64,000 nucleotides of DNA from an uncultured Planctomycetaceae bacterium (GCA_937862885.1 CALMEE010000064.1:1-64000), one strand, 5' to 3'; positions 19,643-31,362 are shown, counted from the first letter of the stretch. The notes: generated from the letters alone by a model not told the origin. Program-made: numbers and translations.

Positions 19643-20182
19643 TTACGGAAATCGCAGATATTGGGCGGGCACGTGTTCAGTCAACCATACACCATTGGCC
19701 GACATATAAAACACGTGTCCGGCTAGGTGCATTGCGTGGGCGTTGACGGTCAGGACAATCGGCTTGCCGCGGCGAGAGCCAACTTTGGTGGCGGTGTCGA
19801 AGTCTGCTGACAAATGGACGTGGTTCCGCGATCCTTTTCTCAAACCGTGTTGCCGAATGCTCTCAACAAACCGCGCTACGGTTCCATGAAACAGTGCATC
19901 CGGCGGCGCGATGGGATCTAATCCCAATTCGACATCCGACACGGAATGCCCTTGGTTGGCACGAATTCTCAAGCCGTCGTCGCTCAGTGCAAATCGCTGC
20001 TTATCGTTGGTTGCTACGATTTCGAGCAGCAGTTCGCTTGTCAACGGGATTCCGAGTCGGTTGGCGTGCGTTACCAATTCAGCGATGGGTAGCCAACCCT
20101 CCGGTTCCAGCTGCATACCGATTTTGTCCGGCCGATGTCGCAACACGAGACTGAGAAACTTGCTGATCTTCTGTTGATTCAT
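19643..20182 (-). CDS. kptA: RNA 2'-phosphotransferase KptA/Tpt1
   Basis: 179-residue Tpt1 homologue that transfers the 2'-phosphate of spliced RNA to NAD+, forming ADP-ribose 1'',2''-cyclic phosphate. Family motifs in order: KFLSLVLRHRPDKIGM (N-lobe with the RNA-binding Arg/His), FALSDDGLRIRANQGHS, FHGT, the catalytic HVHLSADFDTATKVGSRRG, and the final GVWLTEHVPAQYLRF. The length is standard and all four catalytic residues (Arg, His, Arg, Arg) appear present. Bacteria lack the eukaryotic-type tRNA splicing that yields its known substrate, so its in vivo role is unclear. It stands alone, convergent with the oxidoreductase. Confidence 0.93.
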   Translation of the reverse strand: MNQQKISKFLSLVLRHRPDKIGMQLEPEGWLPIAELVTHANRLGIPLTSELLLEIVATNDKQRFALSDDGLRIRANQGHSVSDVELGLDPIAPPDALFHGTVARFVESIRQHGLRKGSRNHVHLSADFDTATKVGSRRGKPIVLTVNAHAMHLAGHVFYMSANGVWLTEHVPAQYLRFP

Positions 20183-20393: not shown

Positions 20394-22118
20394 CTAGCGG
20401 CGCCCCATGGCGAGTTGGTAGTCGGCCATTGCAATAAAGAACTCGACATCGGCATCGAGGACTAGTAATTCCGCAGTAGCGACCGCTTCCTCGTAAATGT
20501 TCAGGACGATCAAGTCAATATCGCCCAGCAGAAATTGATTGCGCCCAATTTCCAACGATTGTCGTGCAAGACGCAAATTTTCAGTTGCTTTTTGATGTCG
20601 CTCTCGAGCATTGAGGAGCGCGGAATGTGCATCCTGAACCGCGATTTGAATTTTGTTGGCCGCAAATTCTCGTTTCCACTCCCATTGCCGTCGTTTCGAC
20701 TCTGCTGCAGTGAGTCTTCCTAAGCCAAATCGCCGCTGCAAAGGCAATTCGGCGATGACCCCAATCTCCATTTCCATTTGCGATTTGTCTCTCAGGGGCG
20801 TGGCCGCGCCACCCACATCCTGCGACGTTTCCGCAAAAACGTCGACCCGCGCCAGGATGGAATTCCGCGCCTCTTCGACATCAATTTCTGCTTTGGCCAA
20901 CTGATAGCCGAGCAGAATTATCTCCGGATGAGTTTGCACCGCAATTGTCAGATCTGTTTGCAATTGTTCGCCGGAAACTTGCGGAAGCTCAGGAAAATCA
21001 GGCAAGAGAGCTGCTTCCGGCAACAACATCCTTCCTTCATCGTCACGCAAGAAGAATGCCAGCTTGATTGTCGATGCCTCGAATTTTCTTCTCGCCTCAA
21101 CCACTTTTGCTTCGCGCTGGGCGATCAGTCGGTCGTTGTCGATGCCCGCCAATTTGGGCAAGTCTCCTCGTTCAACTTGTTCATTAATGGCCCGCGACCT
21201 ATCCAGGGCCAAGTCGAGTAACCTTCGCTGGGCTTCCAACGCATTGCCAACACCAACCCACAGCCAATATGCGGCCGTTGCCTCGCGGACAATTTGAATC
21301 TCTTGTGAAAAGATCAGCGGATCAATGGATTGGATGTCTTGATCCGCGCGGAAAACGGCTGCGCGACGGGCGTCAATCAATCGGTTCTGGCGCAGTGGCA
21401 CAACCGTGCCGATCGCGAATTCCCCTCCGTCATTTGTTTCTCGTTCTTTATACCACGGTTGGAAATTGCCTGAACCTAAGCGGTAACCCGCATAAATATT
21501 TCCCCCAGTCGAAAACAAATTCTGCGAAAGGCCCAGTTGTTGTTGATAGTTGCGGTAAAATCCTTGAGGTTGGTTGACGGATTGCCCGCGCATATTCAAA
21601 TCGAATGCTCCCATTGCGGCCGTGAAGTTACCATCCGCAATATCGCGTTCCAAATATACGCGTTGCAATTCAGGAAAGGTGGCCAATGCCGAAGCCGTAA
21701 CGTCGGATAGCTGAAGTTTGACCGATTGTTCGCTGGCTTCCGTTTCAAATGGCGTTTCCCACTGAGATTCGTCAATCGCGATCGTTTGAGCAGGATCAGC
21801 TACAGCGGGATTGGGCATCGTTTCCGAATCGCTGGTGGTTGGTTCCCTCAACATATCAGCCGACAACTCCAGCGGTGGCTGTGGTAAACGATGCGTGTCG
21901 CCGCGAAATGTCGATACCCATCTCCATTTCGTGAGAGGTGCGGATTGGCATCCTGTGCAGATCAGCATTAAGCACACCAATAGAGATAGTTTTAAACCGC
22001 CGCGAAGATTTTTGACTTGCTGAGCGCTCCAAGAACGAAGCCAGCGCTCCGTAGACACGATGAACACGGTCATTAAAGCGGTTATGGAGGTAGTGGTTCG
22101 GTCGTCCTTGACCTGCAT
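20394..22118 (-). CDS. TolC-family outer membrane efflux lipoprotein
   Basis: Outer-membrane channel of the TolC/OEP family, 574 residues. A basic N-terminal lead is followed by a hydrophobic stretch and a lipobox with Cys57 (CLMLICTGCQSA), so a lipid anchor is likely. The body shows the two OEP repeats of long amphipathic helices: ASALATFPELQRVYLERDI early, NRLIDARRAAVFRADQD in the middle, and HSALLNARERHQKATENL to YEEAVATAELLVLDADVEF at the end. It is the third gene of a minus-strand operon: its start is 2 bp after the HlyD stop. It completes an inner-to-outer membrane path with the two upstream genes. Confidence 0.88.
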   Translation of the reverse strand: MQVKDDRTTTSITALMTVFIVSTERWLRSWSAQQVKNLRGGLKLSLLVCLMLICTGCQSAPLTKWRWVSTFRGDTHRLPQPPLELSADMLREPTTSDSETMPNPAVADPAQTIAIDESQWETPFETEASEQSVKLQLSDVTASALATFPELQRVYLERDIADGNFTAAMGAFDLNMRGQSVNQPQGFYRNYQQQLGLSQNLFSTGGNIYAGYRLGSGNFQPWYKERETNDGGEFAIGTVVPLRQNRLIDARRAAVFRADQDIQSIDPLIFSQEIQIVREATAAYWLWVGVGNALEAQRRLLDLALDRSRAINEQVERGDLPKLAGIDNDRLIAQREAKVVEARRKFEASTIKLAFFLRDDEGRMLLPEAALLPDFPELPQVSGEQLQTDLTIAVQTHPEIILLGYQLAKAEIDVEEARNSILARVDVFAETSQDVGGAATPLRDKSQMEMEIGVIAELPLQRRFGLGRLTAAESKRRQWEWKREFAANKIQIAVQDAHSALLNARERHQKATENLRLARQSLEIGRNQFLLGDIDLIVLNIYEEAVATAELLVLDADVEFFIAMADYQLAMGRR

Positions 22119-22120
22119 AG

Positions 22121-23488
22121 CTAGTCCACTTTTTTTAGCTTCGATCCCGTTGACTTACCGTACACTGGATCAATCTCTGGTCGGATTACCGGAAAACCGT
22201 TCATTAATCGCCAAATTTCGTACCCCAAACTAACCTGTTGCAGCATCACCCAGCCGTTCGCACGCACGCCTTGACGCAAGAACGGCGGCGGCGGCCATTT
22301 CTTCTTTTCAGCGGGGTCAGGGATCACTTGAATCCGGAACTTACCCTCGCCATCGTCGGAGTCGTCTATGGCCACGACCTGACCGCCAAACGTTCCAACA
22401 GCGACTGACGGCCAGCCTGGAAATTGAACTGCAGGATAACCCTCGAATTGGATACGTACATGGTCGCCCACTTGGACTAATGGGATATCGAGTCCGGAAA
22501 TCCAAAGCTCGACTGCCAAGTCACTGGTTTCGGGCACGATCGTAAATAAAGCTTCACCCTTCCTCACCACCTGACTCAACTCGAATAAAGGCAGTCGAAA
22601 AATTGTACCATCCCTTGGAGCGCGTATCGTCAATTGTTGAAGTTCTTCAAGTTTGATCTCCAACTCGCGGATTTCCTTGCGTACGGATGCCCCTTCGCTC
22701 ACCGCACTCTGCACGAATGCTTGTGCGCTTTCTATTTTTGTTTGAGCTTCACTTCGTCTTTGCTCCAATTCGTGCCGCTTCGATTCGACTTCGAATTCAG
22801 CAGCCGCAATCTCGTCATGCAATGAATCAAGCTCAGCCCGCGCCACGTCAAGGTCCTTCTTTAAAATCTCCACCTCGCGCTCCGGGCGAGCACCAGAATC
22901 CTTTAGTGACAGGAACCGTTCATAATTCAATCGAGCCTGGAGTTCCTTGGCTTCATACGCCGGAACCAACTTTAGTTTCGATCTCAACTTGGCCATGGAC
23001 GCCTCGACCGTTTCTTGTGCCGATCGAACCGCATAATCGCGGGCTTCGGTATAGTCGATCACGTTTTTGGCATACACTTGTTCTTTGACGGAGACGGCCT
23101 CTAATTTCGTCTTTAACTCCCGAATTTGCGATTCAACCTGTTGAACGAGACTCGAGGCGGCAGGTAATAGCTCCAGGATGACATCGTCTTTTTGGACAAA
23201 ATCACCCTCGCGCAATCCCGGTTTGATTTGCGCGACGATTCCTTCCACTGGCGAATTCACTGTTTGTTGTCTCTCTTGCGGCACAAATGCCATCACCCGT
23301 CCGGTTCCACGAGCCGTTTGTTGCCACGGAAGGAAGAACATCCCCAAGATCCACAATAACAGGCCGATCAAGACGAATCGGGCCAGCCAACGAATCTTGT
23401 TCGATGATTGCACAAGGTCAATCGTCGGTAGCAGTTTGCGCTGAATCTGTTTACCACTGAGTGTCGATTTCATTGGAAATATCGCCAA
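22121..23488 (-). CDS. HlyD-type periplasmic adaptor (membrane fusion protein)
   Basis: Type I secretion-like adaptor of 455 residues. TTG 23488 begins the frame; ATG 23473 (MKSTLSGKQ) is an equally possible start. A transmembrane helix at about 37-55 (WLARFVLIGLLLWILGMFF) anchors it. Then come a biotinyl-lipoyl half-motif (QTVNSPVEGIVAQIKPGLREGDFVQKDD), a very long coiled coil (about 115-285), the second lipoyl half (LTIRAPRDGTIFRLP) and a beta-barrel. It lies 11 bp after the ABC gene and 2 bp before the TolC gene, so the three are co-transcribed and likely form one complex. Confidence 0.9.
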   Translation of the reverse strand: MAIFPMKSTLSGKQIQRKLLPTIDLVQSSNKIRWLARFVLIGLLLWILGMFFLPWQQTARGTGRVMAFVPQERQQTVNSPVEGIVAQIKPGLREGDFVQKDDVILELLPAASSLVQQVESQIRELKTKLEAVSVKEQVYAKNVIDYTEARDYAVRSAQETVEASMAKLRSKLKLVPAYEAKELQARLNYERFLSLKDSGARPEREVEILKKDLDVARAELDSLHDEIAAAEFEVESKRHELEQRRSEAQTKIESAQAFVQSAVSEGASVRKEIRELEIKLEELQQLTIRAPRDGTIFRLPLFELSQVVRKGEALFTIVPETSDLAVELWISGLDIPLVQVGDHVRIQFEGYPAVQFPGWPSVAVGTFGGQVVAIDDSDDGEGKFRIQVIPDPAEKKKWPPPPFLRQGVRANGWVMLQQVSLGYEIWRLMNGFPVIRPEIDPVYGKSTGSKLKKVD

Positions 23489-23499
23489 ATCTTCCCAGG

Positions 23500-25683
23500 C
23501 TAATCTAATCGGGTGTCCGTCGGCGGTTCTGACCTGCCTGTTTCCCCCAAATCGCCAGTTTTGTTCATTTCAACTTTGTGCTGACACATGTCGCCAAATT
23601 CGGGACGTTCACTGATCAGCAGCACAGACATTTCTCGCGAATCAAGCATATTCGTGATGATCTGTTTTGCTTCATCGTAAGCAAAGCCATCTAATAGCCG
23701 GTCTATGATGATCAGTTTTGGATTTCCGGCCCAAGCCCTAGCTAGCATCAGACGGCGACATTGGGCATTCGACAACGGAAATCCCCCCGAGAGCAATTGG
23801 GTACGGATTCCATGTTCCATGCCGTTGACGCTAGGCAGCAGTCCTGTTTTTTCGATTACACGGCGTACGTCAATCATGCTAACTTGTGCACGATGCAAGT
23901 GGATGTTTGTCTCAAGCGTGCCTGCAAACACATCGACGTCTCGAGCAACGCCGACAAACATACGAACGGAATCCAGCCGGTAATCCCGCAGGTCGATATG
24001 GTTCAACAATATTATACCGCCGCTTTGTTGTCTGAGTCCCAAACACAAATCGGCCACAAATTGAATGCCAGACTGACAACTTCCAATGACGGCTAGTGAT
24101 TGTCGGGCAATGACTTCGAAGCTTAGATTTTCAATGACTGGTTGACCGTCGACATCCAAACTCACTCCCTGAAGGGACAGTTGAGCAGCATCCCCTCCGC
24201 CATACTCAACTAATTGGTTGTGGGTCTCCATCGGAAGATCAAACAGCATCCCCAATTTATCGACGGCTGCCATCAAATCGTAATAGCTGGCAATTAGCGA
24301 ACCAAGTTTTGCGAAGGAGCGCAAAATCAAGATCACAATCAATTCAGCTGCCACGAGTTGCCCGAGGCTAAGCTCACCGCCGATGACCAGCGCGCCACCA
24401 ATTCCCAAAAGAGCGGTTGTTGCCACGCAATAGATGCCCAGCAAGAACAACACTTGCCGCATATAAATGCGAAAATGTTGTTTGCGGGCAACAAGGTATT
24501 CTCCCGAAAGTTGATCAGCTTCGTCGAGCGCGAATTCCATTCCGTCATTGAGTTTGAAGGCGGTTGGATTCTTGCTTAATTCCTCCAACCAGGCAAGCAC
24601 CCGATATTTGGCCACCGATTCATTGATGGCCGTGTTGACGCCCCCGCGCCCTAGCACAAAGAGCGCGAATGCCAACAAACACAGCAACAAGATATCGTAT
24701 CCCAACAAGAACGGGTGATAAAACGCGAGGACTAACATGCCAATAGCTGTTTTCATCACAACCGCAACACCCTCGAGCAACAACTTCGATACCGACTTCT
24801 GCAGCGTGATTACCTCTAGGAAGCGATTGACCAGCTCATGCATCGATTGCCGATCATTTACGCTTTGATCGACGCGCGGTAGCCGATAAGCCAAGTCATC
24901 GACTACGCGTACGAATAGTCGCCGTTCGATGATTTCACTCGCGTAAATCGTTAATGCCGAAAGTGCCGAAGAGAAGGCCAGAAAGACAAACACAATGATC
25001 GCAAGGATGACGACCGGTTGGATAAACTGTCCGAACGCAACCGTGTTGACGAGTGCCTCCACGGCAATTGGCGTGGTCAGCGTCAACAATCCAACAACCA
25101 TTGAGAAGATAAAGACCGTCCAAATATCTTTCATCTCCGGGCGTAAGATGCCCATCAAGCGACGCAGGGGCGGAACAAGGTTGTGGTGTTCGTGTCCATT
25201 ATCGTGGTGCGATATTGGGGTACCAGATGCATCGCCGATTAGAATCGGATAGCTGACTAACCACGAAAGCGTGTTATCAATATTGGAAGCTCGCAACCGT
25301 TTCGCGAATTCAGCGCGTTTGATCCAGTGAGTTTTTCCCGAGCTGAGTTCGACGATATTGAGTCGTTGTCCTTGTATCTTGGAAAGAACGAGCCAATTCT
25401 GTGAACCTTCTTCATCGACCAAGACGGCAACTGGATAGCCGCTACGCACCAACGGCAGAACATCGATCAACGGAGACTCGATTCGCCGAATACGCAACTC
25501 CATGGCTTCCGAGCACGACACCACCGTGTCCAACCAGTCCTCGAACGGTTTGCTGGATTCATTCAGGTGGGATTCAAACATGACCTGACTTGCCTGCTGA
25601 CGGTCAAACACGCGTCCATTGCGCAGTGCGAAATATTCAAGCAGCTTTGTCGATTGTCTGAGTAATTCTACGTTTGTATCCAT
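23500..25683 (-). CDS. ABC exporter-like protein with degenerate ATPase and C39-like domains
   Basis: 727-residue half-transporter built like HlyB/RtxB: C39-like domain (about 1-135), type I exporter membrane domain with 5-6 helices (about 180-450), and nucleotide-binding domain (500-727). Key residues are gone. The Walker A site reads GSCQSGIQ (534-541), with Ile540 for Lys and Gln for Ser/Thr. The Q-loop Gln is replaced (VGVARDV). The signature is LSGGF (631-635). Walker B keeps D661, but Arg662 replaces the catalytic Glu, and the H-loop His is Glu692 (LISERP). The C39 domain has no catalytic Cys, and its HFV-type His region reads QNWLVL. It is the first gene of the operon with HlyD and TolC partners. 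ATP hydrolysis seems unlikely; it may be a structural scaffold or pair with another ATPase. Confidence 0.88.
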   Translation of the reverse strand: MDTNVELLRQSTKLLEYFALRNGRVFDRQQASQVMFESHLNESSKPFEDWLDTVVSCSEAMELRIRRIESPLIDVLPLVRSGYPVAVLVDEEGSQNWLVLSKIQGQRLNIVELSSGKTHWIKRAEFAKRLRASNIDNTLSWLVSYPILIGDASGTPISHHDNGHEHHNLVPPLRRLMGILRPEMKDIWTVFIFSMVVGLLTLTTPIAVEALVNTVAFGQFIQPVVILAIIVFVFLAFSSALSALTIYASEIIERRLFVRVVDDLAYRLPRVDQSVNDRQSMHELVNRFLEVITLQKSVSKLLLEGVAVVMKTAIGMLVLAFYHPFLLGYDILLLCLLAFALFVLGRGGVNTAINESVAKYRVLAWLEELSKNPTAFKLNDGMEFALDEADQLSGEYLVARKQHFRIYMRQVLFLLGIYCVATTALLGIGGALVIGGELSLGQLVAAELIVILILRSFAKLGSLIASYYDLMAAVDKLGMLFDLPMETHNQLVEYGGGDAAQLSLQGVSLDVDGQPVIENLSFEVIARQSLAVIGSCQSGIQFVADLCLGLRQQSGGIILLNHIDLRDYRLDSVRMFVGVARDVDVFAGTLETNIHLHRAQVSMIDVRRVIEKTGLLPSVNGMEHGIRTQLLSGGFPLSNAQCRRLMLARAWAGNPKLIIIDRLLDGFAYDEAKQIITNMLDSREMSVLLISERPEFGDMCQHKVEMNKTGDLGETGRSEPPTDTRLD

Positions 25684-29415: not shown

Positions 29416-31362
29416 TTAGAGATCACGCGGCGTAATATCGAATTCACCAACTTTCACCCCTTGAGGTGACTTCACAATGATGCGAACCGTGAGGTTAAAA
29501 CCGCGAATCACCTCGGCTTCTTCTTCGCTGATCGCATCTTGAATGAAACTTTGCTTGTAGCTGGGCGATGCGTGAAATCCGCGAGGACTAGACTCGATAA
29601 TTCCGTTAGCCAACGTGTACTCAAACTGGACCGAGGTCGCCCCGAGACGACGCACGGACATGCCTGTGAAGTAGCCTCCCCAAGAATCAACGTGTTGATC
29701 CGCAGTGCTATTGTATAGATCGACTAATTGGTCTAACAAATCGTTCGCTCGTGTTCCGGAACTTTGTGTCGCTAAGTCTTTGGGAACATTGAAAAGATCT
29801 GGAGACAACGCGACATTGAGCTGCACATGTTGTATCGTTGTCTCATTGCGCTTTTCGCGTTCAGCGTAGCCCACCTGATGAAAAGGATACTTCACACCGT
29901 CCACGGTTTTGAAATCTCGAATGTGGATTTCACCTTGATTGATATCTTTCGTTGAAAACGCGACATGGTTCAGTCGCCCATCTGCATACAAATACCACGA
30001 TAGACAAGTCGTTCGATCATCATTGAACATTTTCAATTCCGTAACTTCCTGCCCATTGATATTGGAACGCGCGCCAAGCTCAAAATTCTTTGACTTTTGC
30101 AGCATTTCCACTGAGGAAAAGGGATATCGGCTCAAAATGCTGTTCTTGAAATGGTCCTGCTCATTCGAAAAAGACTTTTCCCTGGCAACATCGATGGTCC
30201 AAGAAAATGTGGGCGTTGCTCCACTCGACATTCTGATTCCCCGCAATTGACTGGGAGAGTCAAACACGTATTCGAATAGCGACGAAGCATTCAGCGCCAA
30301 GTGCTGGTACGAGGATTCGAACGTCTGTCCGTTTTCAAAGAACGTTGATCGGCCATTGATTTTAAACGAGTTGATTTGTCGCAAGCGGTCCTCACCACCC
30401 AAAAACTCGATGTGCTTTTGCCACAGCCGTTTGGCGGGATTAATTCCCGGACCAATTACCCAATCCGCACTCGACCCGGCCAGGACAGGTGACTGCCCGT
30501 CGGCCGACAAATTATTGTTGAAAACGTATTCATTCGTTTTCTTGCGCACATAAGCCACTAGCCCATCTAAATGCAACTTGTCGTTATCGTAGTAACCCGA
30601 TTCTGCATTGCCGCCCAGATACTGCAACACGAAAAACGTGAAAACACTGTGCTCAAGTTCATCATGCTCCCAACTGAATTGGGTTTCGTTGCAACTAAAC
30701 AAAACCGTAAGTCCACCCGGTATTGTGCGATTTGTTTCATGGACCGAACCCAAGTTCATCCTCAACGCTGACTTGCGCCGACCGGTAGTCGAAAGAAAAT
30801 CGTTGCGGCATGCATCCACCAAAAACAACTTTCGGCTCGCCTGACATTCCTTTAACAAACTCAGCACTTGGCTAATCGGCAAAAGCGATGATTTGTCGGT
30901 CGGATCTGCATCTTCGGGGCAAAAATACGTTTCACGACTTCCGTCTTCTAGCGGCTCTTCGTCGCTGAATTGTAGGCCGTGTCCCGAAAGACCAACGATA
31001 ATCGTGTCGCCTGGCGCACAACTGCGCAGTTGTGTACGCAGTATCTGCAGAATCTTATCTGGGTTGTTCGGCTTCAGCACGGAAGAGCGAGACCTGCTCG
31101 TCATCACCTTGGTTTGAAATCCAAGGGCATTGAGGGCCTTGGCCAATTCTTGCGCATCACGTTCCGTGTAATTCAACTGCGAGAGGAATTCTTCGTTGTA
31201 AGACTCAACACCAACCAACACCGCGTATTTGTCCTGTGAAAACGCGCTATATTGGCTGGCCGTCCCAGTGAGCAACGCGAAAACTATGAAATACGAGACA
31301 AGTTGGCCCGCGCGCTTAACGGAATTTCGGAAGTGACGTACGGTCGAATTTTGACGAGCCAT
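29416..31362 (-). CDS. secreted caspase-like (C14) protein with LolA-like C-terminal domain
   Basis: 648 residues. A signal peptide lies near residues 21-43. The caspase domain (about 45-300) has KYAVLVGVESYNE, catalytic H128 in VGLSGHGL and C185 in LFLVDACRND, plus AVYNQLNYTERDA-type helix content, so the dyad is intact. From about 320 the protein changes: HIEFLGGEDRLRQINSFKI begins a beta-rich domain ending in FKTVDGVKYPFHQVGY and PDLFNVP. This resembles the LolA / outer-membrane-lipoprotein-sorting fold (inference from pattern). Caspases of this kind cleave after Arg/Lys and act in stress or regulated death. The export signal places it in the periplasm. No partner gene is adjacent. Confidence 0.85.
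   Translation of the reverse strand: MARQNSTVRHFRNSVKRAGQLVSYFIVFALLTGTASQYSAFSQDKYAVLVGVESYNEEFLSQLNYTERDAQELAKALNALGFQTKVMTSRSRSSVLKPNNPDKILQILRTQLRSCAPGDTIIVGLSGHGLQFSDEEPLEDGSRETYFCPEDADPTDKSSLLPISQVLSLLKECQASRKLFLVDACRNDFLSTTGRRKSALRMNLGSVHETNRTIPGGLTVLFSCNETQFSWEHDELEHSVFTFFVLQYLGGNAESGYYDNDKLHLDGLVAYVRKKTNEYVFNNNLSADGQSPVLAGSSADWVIGPGINPAKRLWQKHIEFLGGEDRLRQINSFKINGRSTFFENGQTFESSYQHLALNASSLFEYVFDSPSQLRGIRMSSGATPTFSWTIDVAREKSFSNEQDHFKNSILSRYPFSSVEMLQKSKNFELGARSNINGQEVTELKMFNDDRTTCLSWYLYADGRLNHVAFSTKDINQGEIHIRDFKTVDGVKYPFHQVGYAEREKRNETTIQHVQLNVALSPDLFNVPKDLATQSSGTRANDLLDQLVDLYNSTADQHVDSWGGYFTGMSVRRLGATSVQFEYTLANGIIESSPRGFHASPSYKQSFIQDAISEEEAEVIRGFNLTVRIIVKSPQGVKVGEFDITPRDL

Follow-up and report, generated by a model that had tools for sequence, protein, structure and literature searches.

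The window, a stretch of 64,000 nucleotides from an uncultured Planctomycetaceae bacterium (GCA_937862885.1 CALMEE010000064.1:1-64000), carries an operon in which an ABC exporter-like protein without its catalytic residues is encoded together with a HlyD-type membrane fusion protein and a TolC-type channel. Judged from sequence comparison, this dead ABC-HlyD-TolC design is an inherited family trait found across several phyla. Our leading explanation, tentative and held at somewhat short of even confidence, is a tripartite envelope system combining an ABC fold, a dedicated HlyD and a TolC channel that is no longer run by ATP hydrolysis.

Operon organization and predicted structures

Three minus-strand ORFs follow each other in the order ABC, HlyD, OEP with intergenic gaps of 11 bp and 2 bp (Table 1), as had been described in an earlier note on this DNA. 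The ABC protein is recognized in Pfam as ABC_tran (PF00005) with an E-value of 1e-6 and its partners as HlyD_3 (PF13437) and OEP; the HlyD protein also matches TIGR01843 in part. Several family members are only 550-590 aa long and lack the C39-like N-domain. The C-terminal block of the HlyD protein contains the motifs FEGYPAVQFPGWPSVAVGTFGG...LRQGVRANGW...YEIWRLMNGFP. In the OEP channel, the conserved Gly-Cys pair at aa 56-57 may belong to a lipoprotein signal. Promoter and terminator scans at the operon gave results no better than shuffled sequence. A gene for a KptA/Tpt1 RNA 2'-phosphotransferase lies directly downstream of the operon (window 19643-20182), and a gene for a 648-aa protein, whose start was read by eye as caspase-like, lies upstream on the same strand (window 29416-31362). 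Positions 23503-25683 match the PHROG family phrog_2392, a phage 'ABC transporter', with an E-value of 9e-46.

Table 1. Features of the tripartite operon; nucleotide positions are those of the window
Feature	Position	Strand	Remarks
Dead ABC exporter, 727 aa	23500..25683	-	C39-like N-domain, 6-TM domain and NBD
C39-like N-terminal domain, aa ~1-160	25204..25683	-	Catalytic Cys/His absent
Transmembrane domain (TMD), aa ~170-487	24223..25176	-	Best-conserved region of the family
NBD fold, aa ~500-715	23539..24186	-	Catalytic residues substituted
Walker A position, aa 534-541, GSCQSGIQ	24061..24084	-	Lys540 to Ile
Q-loop region, aa 578-588, GVARDVDVFAG	23920..23952	-	Asp582, Gln absent
True signature position, aa 637-641, LSNAQ (vs LSGGQ)	23761..23775	-	From alignment to canonical exporters
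Walker B, aa 656-662, KLIIIDR	23698..23718	-	Glu662 to Arg; Asp661 retained
H-loop position, aa 692	23608..23610	-	His to Glu
HlyD-type membrane fusion protein, 455 aa	22121..23488	-	TM helix 30-52, hairpin arms, beta domains
HlyD C-terminal block, aa ~320-435	22184..22531	-	Common to partners across phyla
TolC/OEP-family outer membrane channel, 574 aa as called	20394..22118	-	OEP (Pfam)

The AlphaFold2 model of the ABC protein (pLDDT 86) shows the C39-like N-domain, six TM helices and the NBD, and its best Foldseek matches are PCAT1 (E 4e-26) and the HlyB/D complex. Sequence and modelled fold thus both display the 6-TM TMD and NBD of an ABC exporter. Short helices at residues 273-278 and 373-378 of the model sit at coupling-helix positions. 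The HlyD model (pLDDT 88) comprises a TM helix, beta domains and a hairpin with arms of about 80 residues each (aa 114-197 and 203-284), i.e. the TM helix, lipoyl/barrel-sandwich, long alpha-hairpin and beta-barrel expected of HlyD membrane fusion proteins.

Catalytic residues in the window copy and in the family

Alignment to canonical exporters bore out the replacements proposed in the earlier note at Lys540 of Walker A (Ile), Glu662 of Walker B (Arg) and His692 of the H-loop (Glu), as well as the absence of the Q-loop Gln, the aligned residue being Asp582. The Phe that the note had placed at the signature Gln comes from a misread LSGGF: the canonical LSGGQ aligns with LSNAQ at 637-641, which lies opposite the LSGGQ of ABCB1 in a phmmer comparison with PDB chains and has kept the Gln and lost both glycines. 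The note had also described a C39-like N-domain without Cys and His; the fold is indeed modelled, and Tyr and Trp were read from the sequence at these positions. K540I and E662R are common to three genomes (the window, L036 and L037), which speaks against a sequencing error.

The comparison with homologues showed that the catalytic losses are family-wide and not the decay of a single copy. Among 133 distinct family sequences, two of which are incomplete in part of the region because their contigs end there, the Walker B Glu is absent in 129, the H-loop His in 131, the Q-loop Gln in 130 and the Gly-Gly of the LSGGQ signature in 132; none retains the full catalytic set. The Walker A Lys is retained in 92/117 planctomycete/verrucomicrobial members (Arg in 17) and the Walker B Asp in 112/117. 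The Sphingomonadales members have lost the Walker A Lys in all cases (12/12) and the Walker B Asp likewise. Parsimony places at least 10 changes of the Walker A Lys on the tree. The claim that the protein lacks all catalytic residues therefore holds for the window copy and fails for the family as a whole, since many relatives retain this Lys. Asp665, near Walker B, is almost invariant among planctomycete members. The least degenerate member, L080 (genome G021), retains Walker A, the DE of Walker B and the H-loop His, has LSLGQ as signature and lacks the Q-loop Gln. It branches with modest support close to the base of the planctomycete part of the tree and could be an active or intermediate form.

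Distribution and phylogeny

Relatives (E ≤ 1e-60) were detected in 129 of the 199 genomes of the window's own taxonomic family. In the phylum-wide sample they occur in 44/392 genomes, including most sampled genomes of another family of the same class and several deeper families. Spread beyond the phylum is documented by one Verrucomicrobiaceae MAG contig (L035), the single hit of a contig scan queried with the window protein alone, and by records of a plasmid collection. These belong to Bacteroidota (Riemerella, Persicobacter, Aureibacter) and Sphingomonadales (Novosphingobium, Sphingobium, Sphingomonas, Croceicoccus); as far as annotation or ORF reading reveals the gene order, it is again ABC-HlyD-TolC. 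In Novosphingobium aromaticivorans DSM 12444 the trio corresponds to SARO_RS19820, 19815 and 19810 on pNL2. One Riemerella record labelled as a plasmid (L197, NZ_CP081938.1) contains rplU, rpmA and murB and seems to be a mislabelled chromosome fragment. In a TMD tree, the family forms a single clade against 18 canonical exporters with a support of 100, the canonical sampling being small and some outgroup branches long.

Conservation and selection

Transport driven by ATP is what defines ABC transporters, and among their domains the NBD normally shows the highest conservation. In the dead family, mean pairwise identity is 56% for the TMD and 38% for the NBD; canonical exporters from the same genomes show the inverse (TMD 33%, NBD 55%) in a comparison set that mixes subfamilies and has two poorly aligned rows. 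The TMD is more similar than the NBD in 99.8% of 7750 family pairs, against 8% in canonical exporters. In five genomes that carry both a dead ABC and a T1SS ABC, NBD conservation equals or exceeds TMD conservation in the T1SS pairs and the opposite is seen in the dead pairs. The dN/dS values of close pairs, calculated by Nei-Gojobori with several saturated dS values, are 0.004-0.12 for the TMD and 0.02-0.16 for the NBD. Both are far below 1 and indicate purifying selection. Because of the inverted identities and the low dN/dS, the NBD appears constrained as a fold and not as an ATPase. The suggestion of the earlier note that the decay is non-random, with an open frame and conserved partners, is strongly supported and extends over several phyla.

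Several TMD residues are near-invariant across phyla and not in canonical exporters, namely N286, Q295, K296, H323, K359, W365, Q410, E447 and D469; the positions of the NBD that are fixed across phyla are all structural. With positions relative to the membrane estimated from modelled helix boundaries, E447 falls within TM6. Among acidic TMD residues, viewed against the conserved membrane acidic ladder of proton-coupled SbmA-like peptide transporters, E447 and D469 are kept across phyla, and E209, D304, D330 and E355 in part of the family.

Partner genes and genomic neighbourhood

Each of the 82 loci inspected has the HlyD gene as the immediate downstream neighbour of the ABC gene. An OEP-family gene is found inside 74 of them and occupies the second downstream position in 66. 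The ABC and HlyD genes are co-inherited: both occur in 127 genomes, the ABC alone in 2 and the specialised HlyD alone in 4, several of these exceptions being fragmentary assemblies or contig-edge matches. In the plasmid set, HlyD accompanies 20/22 ABC records, and one of the two others has an IS3 transposase gene just downstream of the ABC gene. The HlyD C-terminal block also occurs in the Bacteroidota and Sphingomonadales partners. The HlyD of the T1SS encoded in the same genome lacks the first part of this block, as compared up to the end of the available stretch. This canonical T1SS (L002, C40:101199-105743) comprises an RTX-repeat protein, a C39-like ABC and HlyD; its ABC and the orthologues in related genomes have canonical Walker A, LSGGQ, Walker B and H-loop.

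The gene content around the trio is variable. Neighbour clusters are patchy, no family is conserved in most loci and no conserved cargo gene was found near the trio. By visual comparison of positions, a PEP carboxylase gene lies within about 8 kb of the trio in 13 genomes from 8 genera and DabA in 9 genomes from 4 genera. In some genera, PEP carboxylase and DabB-DabA (inorganic-carbon pump) genes adjoin the trio, and in Sphingobium pHAL16 a DUF2309 (DabA) gene is directly upstream with a carbonic anhydrase nearby (L104, L102, L111, L199). A general tie to inorganic-carbon genes was rejected, as these are absent at most loci, including the window and Bacteroidota, and related genomes are not independent. 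An NhaR-like LysR regulator gene is present near the trio at 12 loci (L052, L053, L055, L058, L084, L085, L087, L088, L092, L100, L101, L112), and some Sphingomonadales likewise have LysR-type genes next to it. The LysR, PEP carboxylase and DabA neighbours are a weak hint of a role in the physiology of small molecules or ions, more than of a dedicated protein cargo.

Possible modes of action

The probability that the gene is a pseudogene or that sequencing errors created the substitutions is negligible. Nothing beyond the substitutions themselves speaks for it, and the open frame, the low dN/dS, the intact canonical paralogues of the same genomes and the identical losses in about 130 sequences from independent genomes refute it. 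Also highly improbable is an exporter that continues to run on ATP by means of a non-canonical active site. The motifs kept in L080 and the almost invariant Asp665 would fit such an enzyme, but the Walker A Lys is gone in the window and in Sphingomonadales, where the Walker B Asp has disappeared too. Hydrolysis of ATP is unlikely because the catalytic Glu, the H-loop His and the signature are gone nearly throughout the family and Walker A is gone in whole clades. ATP could nonetheless act as a gate: the NBD would bind it with no or very slow hydrolysis, binding would open or stabilise the channel, and in some lineages even this gating would have been lost. The retention of the Walker A Lys and Walker B Asp in most planctomycete/verrucomicrobial members and the purifying selection on the NBD are in line with this possibility, as is the stable ATP binding by degenerate sites of heterodimeric exporters (PMC7756269). 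We nevertheless regard such gating as unlikely, given the repeated changes of the Walker A Lys on the tree and the persistence of the operon in Sphingomonadales and in the window in its absence.

The ABC protein might alternatively do no more than anchor HlyD and TolC, with a TMD that moves nothing. A catalytically dead NBD and a strongly conserved, co-inherited HlyD agree with a structural scaffold, which is distinctly unlikely since an anchor needs no TMD of such high mean identity with polar residues fixed across phyla. As a further possibility, the earlier note had named a half-transporter that pairs with an active partner. Heterodimeric exporters in which one site is degenerate are common (PMC7756269) and most of these genomes have canonical exporters; yet the signature of the dead protein is broken as well, so that both composite sites would be defective. 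The search for a second ABC exporter gene found none within about 8 kb in 82 loci, and co-occurrence with a T1SS-type ABC is not consistent: the sole T1SS ABC of the same genome has close orthologues in only 5 of the 38 genomes carrying the dead system, and 5 of the 38 yielded nothing matching it at E ≤ 1e-60. Pairing with an active half encoded elsewhere is therefore improbable.

With the catalytic loss family-wide and the partners kept, the non-ATP-driven conduit or scaffold of the earlier note remains the best class of explanation. In the tripartite system without ATP hydrolysis that we favour, the ABC protein would act as a homodimer with TMDs that have kept their opening and closing movement, and a small molecule or peptide would pass through them into the HlyD-TolC duct. 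Energy would be drawn from an ion gradient (proton-coupled, as in SbmA) or from the gradient of the substrate. The NBD would be kept as a structural or dimerisation platform, with nucleotide binding at most in members having Walker A. We favour such gradients since polar TMD residues are under unusual constraint and SbmA, an ABC-type TMD driven by protons, sets a precedent (PMC13316013). On the models, these polar residues could equally be HlyD contacts. The retention of the Walker A Lys and Walker B Asp also counts against this explanation, as ATP binding may matter in many members. So do the motifs kept in L080, and SbmA itself differs in having neither NBD nor coupling helices, whereas the dead family keeps its NBD fold under selection. 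That an ABC fold acts as a secondary ion-gradient transporter with a dead NBD, HlyD and TolC in several phyla is possible but doubtful. If true, the family would represent an evolutionary stage between ABC pumps and secondary transporters of the SbmA type, and one that spans both membranes.

No description of an ATPase-dead tripartite ABC system was found in the open-access literature searched. A deep family with reversed conservation, in which the TMD and the HlyD and TolC partners are nevertheless kept, is a natural case in which to ask what an ABC TMD is capable of without its motor. The public label 'ABC transporter ATP-binding protein' carried by many of its proteins is misleading. The culturable relative N. 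aromaticivorans DSM 12444 makes the question directly testable.

Comparison with known systems

The system has the architecture, and probably the mode of working, of the machineries for type I secretion or tripartite efflux. It resembles T1SS (HlyB-HlyD-TolC; LssB/LapB-type, TIGR03375) in its ABC, HlyD-type MFP and TolC-type OMF encoded in this order in one operon, its C39-like N-domain, 6-TM exporter fold and long HlyD hairpin, and in its structural matches to PCAT1 and the HlyB/D complex. It differs by the absence of a conserved linked substrate gene and of the NBD catalytic set (Walker A Lys, catalytic Glu, H-loop His, LSGGQ). The polypeptide substrates of T1SS are often encoded close by, but one for this system may lie elsewhere in the genome. 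Its scores are far below the NCBIfam cut-offs (107 vs 693 bits for TIGR03375, 93 vs 726 for TIGR01846). Since an ATPase-competent NBD is absent and the family cut-offs are missed, the system was not filed as a T1SS. The T1SS-related SecA_DEAD loci of Planctomycetes, reportedly devoid of an ABC transporter homologue (PMC4452313), are a different system.

SbmA-like peptide transporters (SLiPTs) are peptide importers that lack both an NBD and coupling helices (PMC13316013). The dead family would share with them an ABC exporter-type TMD that does not use ATP, but it retains an NBD fold under selection as well as HlyD and TolC partners. The window system was not classified as a SLiPT because the NBD fold and the coupling-helix positions remain. 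A degenerate catalytic Glu and H-loop are also found in heterodimeric exporters (TM287/288, TAP, TmrAB); these keep one complete composite site, whereas the dead family has lost its own signature and its loci revealed no partner gene. In EmrAB-TolC, the inner-membrane pump is the MFS protein EmrB, which is not driven by ATP and works together with a membrane fusion protein and TolC. The dead system would resemble it in a non-ATP tripartite layout, with an ABC exporter fold as its inner-membrane protein.
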